From assembly GCA_022447585.1 (NCBI GenBank), contig JAKVAR010000048.1, positions 62,001 to 126,000 on the forward strand: a stretch of 64,000 bases of DNA, written 5' to 3'. Below, piece after piece: positions 50,429 to 55,032 of the stretch. Made by a program: the position numbers and the translations under genes. The notes under the pieces were generated by a model, which saw nothing but the letters and a program-made list of their open reading frames with translations, did not search any database and was not told where the DNA came from. Numbering within the stretch: the first letter of the stretch is position 1; each line of letters opens with the position of its first letter. This DNA comes from Crocinitomicaceae bacterium. GTDB taxonomy: Bacteria; Bacteroidota; Bacteroidia; Flavobacteriales_D; Crocinitomicaceae.

Positions 50429-51661
50429 CTAGAAGAACCTACAACTGAAAATGGCTGTATCATCAACCAGTGGTAACGGCCCCTTCCATTCATCTAGTTT
50501 GGAAAAAATAAGGTTATTCATATCATCCATACCTAAGGGGTAATAATTATGAACTAGCTTTACAAGCCGATCTGTGCCAAAAAATTCCTCCTCCTCATTT
50601 TCCAGCTCAACAACACCATCAGTATATAGAACGATTGTCGTATTTGGACTCAACTTCTTTTCACCAACATTAATGAATGGTAATTCATCCATCATACCTA
50701 AACCAATACACCCTTGATCTAGATCTTCGTACGTTTTTCCGTTCGTAATAAATGGATGATTGTGACCAGCATTAACATAATTAAGCTTTCTTGAATTGGC
50801 ATCATAGTGAGCTAAGAAAAATGTAATAAACTTCTCCCCTTTAGCACTACTCATTACCTTTTTATTTAATTCCACCATTAAGGTTTTCATATCAAAACGC
50901 TGGTACTCAAACAAGGTCCTAATGGTTGCTTGAAAGTTAGCCATCAACATAGCTGCTGAAATTCCTTTACCAGAAACATCTGCGATACAAATTATATATT
51001 CATCATCTCCTAAAGGAATAAAATCGTAGTAATCTCCGCCAACCTCGTGTCGAGGTGTGTACTTTGCAGAAATATCCATTCGTTTGTTTGTAGGTAGCTG
51101 CTCAGGGAATAACAACTTCTGCATTGTCTTCGCCACCTCCAATTCCTTTTTATAGGCTTCTTGTTTAACCTTGAGCTTAGCCATACGTTTATTCTCAATA
51201 GCTACAACAATAATATTCGTCAATGTTTGAACGAAACTCATGTAATTGATATCAGAACTTAAATGCCTAGCATCATTCTCCACCCCTTTCACAAGAAGGT
51301 ACGCAAGAGCCCTACCCTTATGTTGAACAGGTACAACAACATCGAATTCACTCAACAACCTAGATTGTGAGGACTGTATCATCGTGATTTCTTCAAAACG
51401 ACTTAACTCACTTTCAATATCAATATTATTAACTTTTCCTTTATAACCTACGCGAAGCAGACAATTCCATTCATTTTGATGATTAAATAAGACAAAACGA
51501 TCATATCCTAACTGTTCGCGAACAATGAACGAATATAACTCAATGATTTTATTTACTTTTTGATTGGTATTGATAGCTCTAGTAATCTCCAACAAAGAGT
51601 TCAGCTTAAAATCTTTAAGCCGAATTTGAGATTCGAGGTTATTTACGAGTTTATCAATCAT
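50429..51661 (-). CDS. SpoIIE/RsbU-type PP2C serine phosphatase with GAF-like sensor
   Basis: A 410-residue cytosolic regulator. Residues about 10-170 form a GAF-like domain with coiled-coil ends; the C-terminal 220 residues are a PP2C phosphatase with metal-binding motifs RHEVGGDYYDF, IADVSGKGISAAMLMA, YVNAGHNHPFI and YTDGVVELENEE. Such phosphatases dephosphorylate anti-sigma antagonist proteins. The stop touches that of porU. It follows the LpxD-like gene with a one-base overlap. Confidence 0.88.
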   Translation of the reverse strand: MIDKLVNNLESQIRLKDFKLNSLLEITRAINTNQKVNKIIELYSFIVREQLGYDRFVLFNHQNEWNCLLRVGYKGKVNNIDIESELSRFEEITMIQSSQSRLLSEFDVVVPVQHKGRALAYLLVKGVENDARHLSSDINYMSFVQTLTNIIVVAIENKRMAKLKVKQEAYKKELEVAKTMQKLLFPEQLPTNKRMDISAKYTPRHEVGGDYYDFIPLGDDEYIICIADVSGKGISAAMLMANFQATIRTLFEYQRFDMKTLMVELNKKVMSSAKGEKFITFFLAHYDANSRKLNYVNAGHNHPFITNGKTYEDLDQGCIGLGMMDELPFINVGEKKLSPNTTIVLYTDGVVELENEEEEFFGTDRLVKLVHNYYPLGMDDMNNLIFSKLDEWKGPLPLVDDTAIFSCRFF

Positions 51662-52587
51662 TAGAGACTTTCTAAAATTTCTGGAAGTTTTCTTAATGCC
51701 GCCATTTCTCTGAGCTTAGATTTTGCTTCTGCGCAAGGAGAACCAAAGTACGTTTTTCCACCGGCTAAACTTTTTGCTATTCCTGACTGCGCCAAAACCA
51801 CAGCACCTTCACCGATGACAATATCACTAGCGCAGCCAACTTGCCCCCACAAAGTCACATTATCTTCAACAACTACACATCCAGCCAAACCAACTCCTGC
51901 AGCCATCAAACAATTTTTACCAATCACCGTATCATGACCAACATGAACATGATTATCTAATTTAGTTCCTTCACCAATAACAGTTAAAGCAGATACTCCC
52001 GCATCTACTGTGCAAAGCCCTCCAAGCTCAACGTTCTTTTGTAAGTGAACACCACCACAAGTATGCATCCGATCATAACCTGTTGGTTTCTTTTTATAAT
52101 AAAATGCGGCATGTCCAACTACAGAATTCGGCCCGACCACTGCACCTTCGTCAATTTTAGTGTTATCCCCAATTGAAGCTCCTGCATAAATGACTACATC
52201 AGGTCCAATCTCTACATTTTTACCAATAAAAACATTTGGATAAATGATCGCAGACTCATGAATTACCGCCTCTTTACTTACCGCCTCTTTTTGGGGGATG
52301 AAAGGAGAAAAATGCCTCGCTAATTTATTATAATCGTCAAACGGTGACTTAGAAATTATCAAAGCTTTACCCTCAGGACATTCAACCTCTTGATCAATCA
52401 ATACCGTAGTGGCAGCACTTTTCAAGGCTTTACCATAATACTTTGAATGATCAACAAAGACTAAATCTCCATTTTCCACCTTATGAATTTCATTAATACC
52501 AGAAACAATATGATGAGGAGAACCAACAAATGAACATCCTAAGAGTTCTGCTATTTCTTTAACCGTATGAGATTGCTTAAATTTCAT
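51661..52587 (-). CDS. LpxD-like UDP-3-O-acylglucosamine N-acyltransferase
   Basis: A 308-residue left-handed beta-helix acyltransferase. The N-terminal LpxD-type domain (about 1-100) has TVKEIAELLGCSFVGSP; hexapeptide repeats follow from residue 100, with the likely catalytic H218 in HVGHDTVIG. It would add the N-linked hydroxyacyl chain in lipid A synthesis; since many Bacteroidota carry two LpxD-like genes, this may be the second, with a different role. The window holds no other lpx gene. Confidence 0.82.
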   Translation of the reverse strand: MKFKQSHTVKEIAELLGCSFVGSPHHIVSGINEIHKVENGDLVFVDHSKYYGKALKSAATTVLIDQEVECPEGKALIISKSPFDDYNKLARHFSPFIPQKEAVSKEAVIHESAIIYPNVFIGKNVEIGPDVVIYAGASIGDNTKIDEGAVVGPNSVVGHAAFYYKKKPTGYDRMHTCGGVHLQKNVELGGLCTVDAGVSALTVIGEGTKLDNHVHVGHDTVIGKNCLMAAGVGLAGCVVVEDNVTLWGQVGCASDIVIGEGAVVLAQSGIAKSLAGGKTYFGSPCAEAKSKLREMAALRKLPEILESL

Positions 52588-52752: not shown

Positions 52753-53460
52753 ATGCAAAAGACAACACGATTTATTTTTTACGCATCGCTGCTATTCAAT
52801 TTTATGGCAATCGTGTATTTTACCCCCAAAATAATTCGAAAATTATCAACTCCAGAATCAACAGTAATAAGCGAATCATACTGGATGCAACGAGACAAAT
52901 ATCTAAACACATTACCAATTGACACGAACAGTATTGTCTTAATTGGAACGAGCTTAACACACAACTTTGAAATCCAAGAAACTGCAGGACCAGCAGTGAA
53001 AAATAGAGGTATAAACGGTGATAATTTAATTGGCATTATCAATCGCCTGAAAAACGTTACGGACGCAAAACCAAAAAGAATAATTCTCGAGGCAGGCATC
53101 AATGATATCGGAGACCTTAATCATACCAATGATCAAATCATCACCAACTATAAAAAATTGCTTTCAGCAATTCAAAACACTACCCCTGAAACAGATCTAA
53201 TTATCACGAGCCTATTCCCTGTTGCTGATTCTAGCGAGAGAATGAAAACGTATTGTTCTCCTGAGACTAATTTGCAAATAAATGAATTAAATAAAAAATT
53301 AGAATCCTTATCCAACAAATACAATGCTCGGTTTCTCAATTTCCATAAATCATTCACACTTAACAATGAACTTAATTCAAAATACTCTATGGATGGTGTA
53401 CACTTATCTGCAGAGGGGTATAACCTTTGGCAAAAATTAATTCTGCCGTATTTAAATTGA
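52753..53460 (+). CDS. SGNH/GDSL-family hydrolase with N-terminal membrane segment
   Basis: A 235-residue esterase-like protein. A signal anchor (about residues 6-25) is followed by an SGNH domain: block I GTSLT (Ser nucleophile), block II Gly in NRGINGD, block III Asn in AGINDIG, and block V DGVHLS with Asp and His. Members remove acetyl or acyl groups from sugars or lipids. The ATG at 52753 follows an open stretch with an unlikely start at 52669. About 40 bases separate it from the broken gene. Confidence 0.82.
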   Translation: MQKTTRFIFYASLLFNFMAIVYFTPKIIRKLSTPESTVISESYWMQRDKYLNTLPIDTNSIVLIGTSLTHNFEIQETAGPAVKNRGINGDNLIGIINRLKNVTDAKPKRIILEAGINDIGDLNHTNDQIITNYKKLLSAIQNTTPETDLIITSLFPVADSSERMKTYCSPETNLQINELNKKLESLSNKYNARFLNFHKSFTLNNELNSKYSMDGVHLSAEGYNLWQKLILPYLN

Positions 53461-53501: not shown

Positions 53502-53945
53502 ATGAAACTAGTAACATTTATCTTACTAATCATTTGGACTTCCAACTTAATAAGTCAAACAAACATTATTTCCAACAAAAGTCATTCAGGTAACTTAGCC
53601 GAAGTCAACCTTGAAAAAGACAACTTCGGAATGCCCGCTATCGAAATTGACAGTATCATTTATCATGGAAATAATTGTATCATTGAAGTCAGTACCCATG
53701 TATATAAAGGCAGCAGCATAAAAGATACTGTATGCGACCACCCCTAATTCGTTAAACATGGATACAATCTAAATGCAATCAAGGAAATGTACCCGTCAAG
53801 AAGAGTTTTTGTGGGCTTCGAACAAATCGAAACGGTGCCACCTTCACCTAATGGATGGCCAATTCAAAACAGCATATCATGGCTTATTGGATTAATTTGC
53901 TGTTCTATTCTTGGATTCACTTTTCTTTCTAAAGAAAAAAAATAA
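53502..53945 (+). pseudogene. small exported membrane-anchored protein, interrupted by an in-frame TAA
   Basis: An 81-codon ORF with signal peptide (ILLIIWTSNLISQ) ends at TAA 53745-53747. The same frame stays open for 65 further codons and ends at TAA 53943-53945, one base before the ATG of the next gene. The second part encodes a hydrophobic helix (SWLIGLICCSILGFTFLS) and a basic tail. The whole looks like a 147-residue protein with signal peptide, short outer domain and C-terminal anchor, broken by one stop. It may be a recent mutation, a sequencing error or read-through. I recognise no family. Confidence 0.6.
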
Positions 53946-53946
53946 A

Positions 53947-55032
53947 ATGGAGATTAAACTAATCGTAAAAAACACGATTGAATTATGGTTAATTATGACA
54001 GCCTTAATCCTACCTTTTCCTTATGCCATAATTCCTTCAATAAAATTTGCCGCCTCTGAATCAAGTTTGATTTACCTACTAAGTTTTACTTTAATCATTC
54101 TTTCATGTATCGTCAACGTTTTACTCCTATTCTATAATTCAGTTGATACAATTCAATTCTCACGTTTAACTAGAACAATAGGAACATACCTGCTTGCTCT
54201 TTTTTTAATAAAATACGGTGTAGACAAATTATTTCAAAATCAATTTTACTCGCCAGAACCAAACATTCTCCATACTCCAATCGGACAACTTACAAAAGAT
54301 ATTGTGTTCTGGACATCAATGAACACCTCATCCTCTTACAATATATTCATTGGGTGCATAGAAATTTGCTCAGGACTTTTACTCTTTTCTAACCGCTTTC
54401 GATTAATAGCTATAATAATGAGTATTGGGATCACTGCGAATATCTTCATGATTAATGTCGGCTTTGATATTTCTGTAAAATTTCTTTCAGGCTACTTATT
54501 TATCCTATCAATCTACCTAACTTTATTCTACGCTTCACACGTACTCAAAGCACTCACTGACATAGCAAAAATTGCTCATAATATAAAAAGACATGAGCAA
54601 TCAAAACTAAATCGTTTTGTAAAATCCACTGTAATTGGAGTAATTATCATTGAATGTTTGCTACCATACAGCGCAGGGATGCGGCATAGAAGGACATCCA
54701 AAGAACTTTTTGGAAATAGTTATGAATTTGAACAAGCCCAGCAAATTAAACTAATTCCGTATGAAATTAAACGAATTCACTTCCACAAGCAAGGATATCT
54801 CGTAACAGAATCTCAAAACCATGAATTTGAAGACTGTAGAATCCATGCATCACCATTAAGAAATGAAATTATGCTAAAAGAATTAAATCAAGTTATGAAC
54901 TATAAGATTGACTCCAATCAACTTATACTAACTTTGAATTCAAATCAATACAAACTAACAGAAGTAGACAATACATCATTACCCTTATTAGAAGACTCAT
55001 TTCACTGGACTACAGAGAGCTTTCCACATTAA
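53947..55032 (+). CDS. DoxX-like membrane protein with C-terminal soluble domain
   Basis: A 361-residue protein from the ATG at 53947. Eight or so membrane helices lie in residues 10-260; the central part with KYGVDKLFQNQF and GCIEICSGLLLFSNRFRLIA resembles DoxX/DoxD-like proteins. The last 100 residues (from about 262) are soluble and may lie outside the membrane. It follows the interrupted gene by one base and overlaps the E1 stop by four bases head-on. Function is unknown. Confidence 0.7.
   Translation: MEIKLIVKNTIELWLIMTALILPFPYAIIPSIKFAASESSLIYLLSFTLIILSCIVNVLLLFYNSVDTIQFSRLTRTIGTYLLALFLIKYGVDKLFQNQFYSPEPNILHTPIGQLTKDIVFWTSMNTSSSYNIFIGCIEICSGLLLFSNRFRLIAIIMSIGITANIFMINVGFDISVKFLSGYLFILSIYLTLFYASHVLKALTDIAKIAHNIKRHEQSKLNRFVKSTVIGVIIIECLLPYSAGMRHRRTSKELFGNSYEFEQAQQIKLIPYEIKRIHFHKQGYLVTESQNHEFEDCRIHASPLRNEIMLKELNQVMNYKIDSNQLILTLNSNQYKLTEVDNTSLPLLEDSFHWTTESFPH

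Follow-up and report, generated by a model that had tools for sequence, protein, structure and literature searches.

A single in-frame TAA divides a small anchored-protein gene in a Crocinitomicaceae genome and is probably a recent nonsense mutation

In the DNA of a Crocinitomicaceae bacterium analyzed here (64,000 nucleotides of contig JAKVAR010000048.1, assembly GCA_022447585.1, positions 62,001 to 126,000 of the forward strand; hereafter the window), an open reading frame (ORF) that begins with the ATG at position 53502 ends after 81 codons at a TAA (53745-53747), and the same frame then stays open for another 65 codons, up to a second TAA at 53943-53945. The ATG of the next gene (53947-53949), which encodes a membrane protein referred to below as the partner, lies one base past this second stop. 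Does the first TAA separate two genes, or does it divide one, and if so, what kind of stop is it? All positions, lengths and both stops were taken directly from the sequence and agree exactly with those given in an earlier account made from the DNA alone (the sequence-only reading). We conclude that the TAA is probably a recent nonsense mutation in a dispensable gene for a small protein, making it a nascent pseudogene.

An open run of this length had been considered unlikely by chance in the sequence-only reading. Indeed, a first-order model with either local or window composition puts the chance at about 1.7%, but in 6 of the 66 ATG-started window ORFs of at least 80 residues, a set that takes in shadow ORFs, the same frame stays open for at least 65 codons after the stop; in the other five, the run leads into a neighboring gene in the same frame. 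The length of the run is thus suggestive without being decisive, and because similar runs follow five other ORFs in the window, homology is the real test.

A search of the joined 147-residue translation against 60 genomes, its own included, gave matches with E ≤ 0.1 in 20, and in 17 of these a match, in some cases a weak one, spans both halves. At E ≤ 0.01, matches are found in 15 of the 34 genomes of the genus, again counting the window's own. With divergent copies from genomes G009, G011 and G016 added, and with the weak matches G006 and G007:C47 left out, the genus tally is 21 copies in 18 of the 34 genomes: 16 copies in 13 genomes other than the window's are uninterrupted (listed in the table), two are cut by contig ends (G013 and G032), and three, those of the window, G016 and G022, are interrupted. 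Because uninterrupted homologues span both halves, the halves are one ancestral gene, the small gene, as the sequence-only reading had proposed. The unbroken homologue of the joined translation that it had suggested searching for does exist, and the contrary outcome that it had named, homologues all ending at residue 81, did not occur.

Most copies in the genus share a hydrophobic N terminus, a motif near Q-T-x-I-I-x-x-K-S-H-S-G, the motif D-x-F-G, two cysteines, a core that ends in an F-[IV]-G-F-like sequence, and a hydrophobic C-terminal stretch, which is weak in L006_N, L003b, L010 and L010b (19-residue mean 1.06-1.38). In the joined window protein, the N-terminal hydrophobic stretch has a 15-residue Kyte-Doolittle mean of 2.24, the core ends with F-V-G-F at residues 103-106, and a second hydrophobic stretch covers approximately residues 125-143 (19-residue mean 2.05). 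The terms signal peptide and membrane helix rest on these hydropathy values and on the homologues, which together back the layout described earlier: a signal-like N terminus, a short outer domain and a C-terminal anchor. The internal TAA falls within the conserved core, ahead of both F-V-G-F and the helix, so that the 81-residue fragment ends 21-24 residues short of the motif. Both halves are otherwise intact, and this TAA is the single lesion.

At the column of TAA 53745, a stop is absent from all 13 aligned homologues; the residues found there are Y, V, A, V, I, D, F, Y, F, Q, K, L and I. This alignment, and the tree used below, omit the frameshifted L008, two copies cut short where their contigs end (L012 and L015), L016, which comes from another genus, the second half of the L006 frame, and the divergent G009, G011 and G016 copies. 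The best match, G018 (contig L025), has Tyr at the column and the second best, G007, has Val; the DNA alignment with L025 is free of gaps at and beside the site, where a single base separates the two codons. The sequence-only reading had derived the TAA from a Gln codon (CAA). This origin is not favored, given Tyr and Val in the two best matches; Gln occurs in one more distant copy, that of G017, and a Gln-to-stop change is one of several possible single steps.

The orthologues are thus uninterrupted at the site, and what the stop removes includes conserved sequence, as expected of a pseudogene formed by nonsense mutation. In its one internal stop, intact flanks, uninterrupted orthologues and absence from many relatives, the small gene resembles nascent bacterial pseudogenes formed by nonsense substitution, and we find no distinctive difference from them; the event is an ordinary one. 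We propose that the gene belongs to a family of small exported, usually C-terminally anchored proteins of the order, of which it would be a fast-evolving member, and that a single nucleotide substitution, real in the organism, created the internal TAA and recently inactivated the gene in this genome. The 81-residue product, missing the end of the core as well as the anchor, would be non-functional, and the still intact partner gene may lose translational coupling. Such fast evolution is indicated by identities of 34-48% in the six best foreign matches of the small gene, against 64-69% for its LpxD-like neighbor. The small gene fits a dispensable gene and seems easily lost, because it evolves fast, is sometimes duplicated, was not found in 16 of the 34 genus genomes (several of which are incomplete) and is damaged in 3 of its 21 copies.

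The two other damaged copies, from sister species, carry separate lesions. In G022 (L008 1486-2010), a frameshift lies just before the F-I-G-F region, the helix can still be read in another frame, and the partner gene is present. The G016 copy (L065 982-1584) is interrupted by one in-frame TAA, though not where the window has it, and no partner gene was found in that genome. Several observations speak against a recent inactivation. The G016 and G022 lesions come from draft assemblies as well and might themselves be errors. The intactness of both window halves, with no second lesion, would also fit an error or readthrough. Finally, although the ratio of identity after the stop to that before it is lowest in the window copy (0.58, among 14 copies), the speed-up after the stop on a fixed tree is 2.2-fold, compared with 2.5-fold for the intact L002 and still higher values for L005, L009 and L013, so that the window copy does not appear clearly accelerated beyond its stop.

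As only one base is involved, the main rival is an artefact of sequencing, assembly or strain mixture, the TAA then being absent from most cells of the species. The draft nature of the source genome (201 contigs, 6.08% estimated contamination), the intactness of the rest of the gene and a run of four C before the stop are all in keeping with this. We nevertheless consider it unlikely: no length change is seen at the site relative to the best match, two other copies in the genus are broken too, albeit in drafts themselves, and the other window genes show no comparable defect. This last point comes from two comparisons with stretches of G018 and G007. In a one-sided control of gene ends, which flags a relative that runs on by more than 15 residues, 39 of 43 non-overlapping window genes (the 66 ORFs with shadow ORFs removed) are not overrun; of the other four, the small gene, the only one to end so early, is overrun by 64-65 residues and the rest by 17-28 net. 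Stops occur in 21 of 99 alignments of relatives' ORFs to the window. The small gene accounts for 3 of the 21; 14 are shadow frames, each covered more strongly and without a stop in another frame; and the remaining 4 have stops only close to where the relative begins or ends. No other window gene thus has an internal stop relative to G018 and G007, and there is therefore no general error signal. A reassigned TAA code was also considered and rejected, as 25 of the 28 window genes that end in TAA pass the same 15-residue control and so end with their relatives; of the three exceptions, one is the small gene and the two others are overrun by 17-28 residues net.

The remaining alternatives accept the stop. 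It could be maintained with a low rate of readthrough, which would yield mostly soluble fragment and only a small amount of the anchored full-length protein. The frame downstream is open and still family-like, as this would require; TAA followed by T, however, is an efficient stop context. Belinky et al. 2021 (PMC7918605) report bacterial in-frame stops maintained under selection, and use a stop position shared with a second genome as the criterion against errors. The window gene resembles the prokaryotic genes with suspected readthrough described there in having an in-frame stop inside an otherwise conserved frame and differs from them in that its stop position recurs in no second genome. Since the stop is shared by none of the aligned homologues, and G016 has its TAA elsewhere and no detected partner, we regard readthrough as improbable. 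Slightly less credible still is that the fragment is a working soluble variant. The part before the stop is as conserved as in other copies (mean identity 0.42), and 4 of 14 recognizable loci (L063, L064, L069 and L073) seem by eye to lack the C-terminal helix, a count in which the end of L070 was not seen; all four, however, reach F-I-G-F, whereas the fragment stops well before its motif and therefore does not mimic a natural short form. It is also very doubtful that individual interruptions that can revert (the window TAA, the G016 TAA and the G022 frameshift) hold down expression of the small gene again and again within the genus, while leaky readthrough adjusts the level of the anchored form and of the coupled partner. 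Two separate genes can be set aside with near certainty: an in-frame ATG at 53787 would open an ORF of 52 residues, but the 16 uninterrupted genus copies hold both parts in one frame, and the second half on its own has no signal-like start. A recent nonsense mutation thus remains the reading we prefer.

The small gene and the partner form a conserved pair that recurs in several genera, with the small gene first. The partner gene is present in 16 of the 34 genus genomes, and in 15 of these the small gene lies directly upstream of it; in G005, the two are on different contigs. In a further set of 15 loci (14 of the 15 stretches fetched after the order-wide profile search described below, and L016), the partner lies within the stretch at 13, L063 and L065 being without it. 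At L064, the stop of the small gene is followed by the start of the partner protein in the same frame. The features of the locus are collected in the table.

Table 1. Features at the interrupted locus (window coordinates) and uninterrupted copies of the small gene
Feature	Position	Strand	Description
Small gene, first half	53502..53747	+	Signal-peptide-like start and most of the conserved ectodomain; 81 codons, to the in-frame TAA
Small gene, second half	53748..53945	+	End of core, linker, helix and basic tail; ordinary stop TAA 53943-53945
Partner gene	53947..55032	+	361-residue membrane protein, full length relative to its relatives
GDSL esterase/lipase-like gene	52753..53460	+	Pfam Lipase_GDSL_2, E=3.9e-19
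LpxD-like gene	51661..52587	-	Conserved divergent neighbor of the pair
Uninterrupted copies			G018, G007 (two), G019, G031, G005 (two, one fused frame), G014, G008
Uninterrupted copies, continued			G020 (two), G028, G017, G025, G011, G009

The divergent neighbor of the pair, which we take from its sequence to be LpxD-like, is in place at every genus locus from L001 to L015 except L012, which starts at a contig end (14 of 15). The GDSL-type gene lies between it and the small gene only in the window, among the loci compared, and has a homologue elsewhere in the genus only in G010 (2 of 34 genomes, counting the window's).

Across the order, a family profile built from three sequences had matches at E ≤ 0.01, many of them weak, in 88 of the 399 genomes sampled, a number that counts the window's own. 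One of the 15 stretches fetched, L076 (G362), held nothing recognizable as the family in the reading frame inspected. In G206 and G312, the stops within the profile matches are natural ends; stop-bearing profile matches were also flagged in G337 and G056, and the search of 60 genomes gave weak ones in G055 and G016:C48. In G005 (L006 1468-2427, reverse complement), two tandem copies of the small gene are fused in one open frame of 320 residues, and long open frames with two matches each in G385 (386 residues) and G067 (433 residues) may resemble this fusion.

Neither protein of the pair could be assigned to a described family. Among the small and partner proteins tested, none scored above the cut-off of a Pfam or NCBIfam model; below the cut-off, Pfam gave only DUF5933 (E=0.018) for the window partner, DoxX_3 (E=0.87) for its L025 homologue, and DUF22 (E=0.0096) and ASFV_L11L (E=0.021) for that of L026. 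The structure models, each built from 3 sequences, were too poor to suggest a function for either the joined small protein (mean predicted local distance difference test score, pLDDT, 49.8) or the partner (mean pLDDT 45.2), and a fold search with the partner model returned nothing at E ≤ 0.001. In this low-confidence model, the first two thirds of the partner are helical and the last third is rich in beta structure. The partner resembles DoxX-like membrane proteins in being a predicted multi-helix protein, one homologue of which has the sub-threshold DoxX_3 match, and differs from them in its extra C-terminal part and in reaching no curated cut-off. A similarity of the small protein to the ribosomal proteins uS14/S29 (best E=2.8e-4) was set aside as chance, without further test, because the profile comprised three sequences and a ribosomal role would be unexpected for an exported protein. 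A scan of viral contigs gave no relative, and we found no literature on metagenome pseudogenes in Bacteroidetes or on DoxX operons.

For annotation, these results mean that the 81-residue ORF should be labeled as a fragment of a longer gene. A side result is the pair itself: a small anchored protein and a membrane partner that recur together in several genera, with no model at cut-off. The finding of a damaged small gene beside an intact partner, in the window and in G022, points to a dispensable small protein, at least as far as survival of the partner is concerned.
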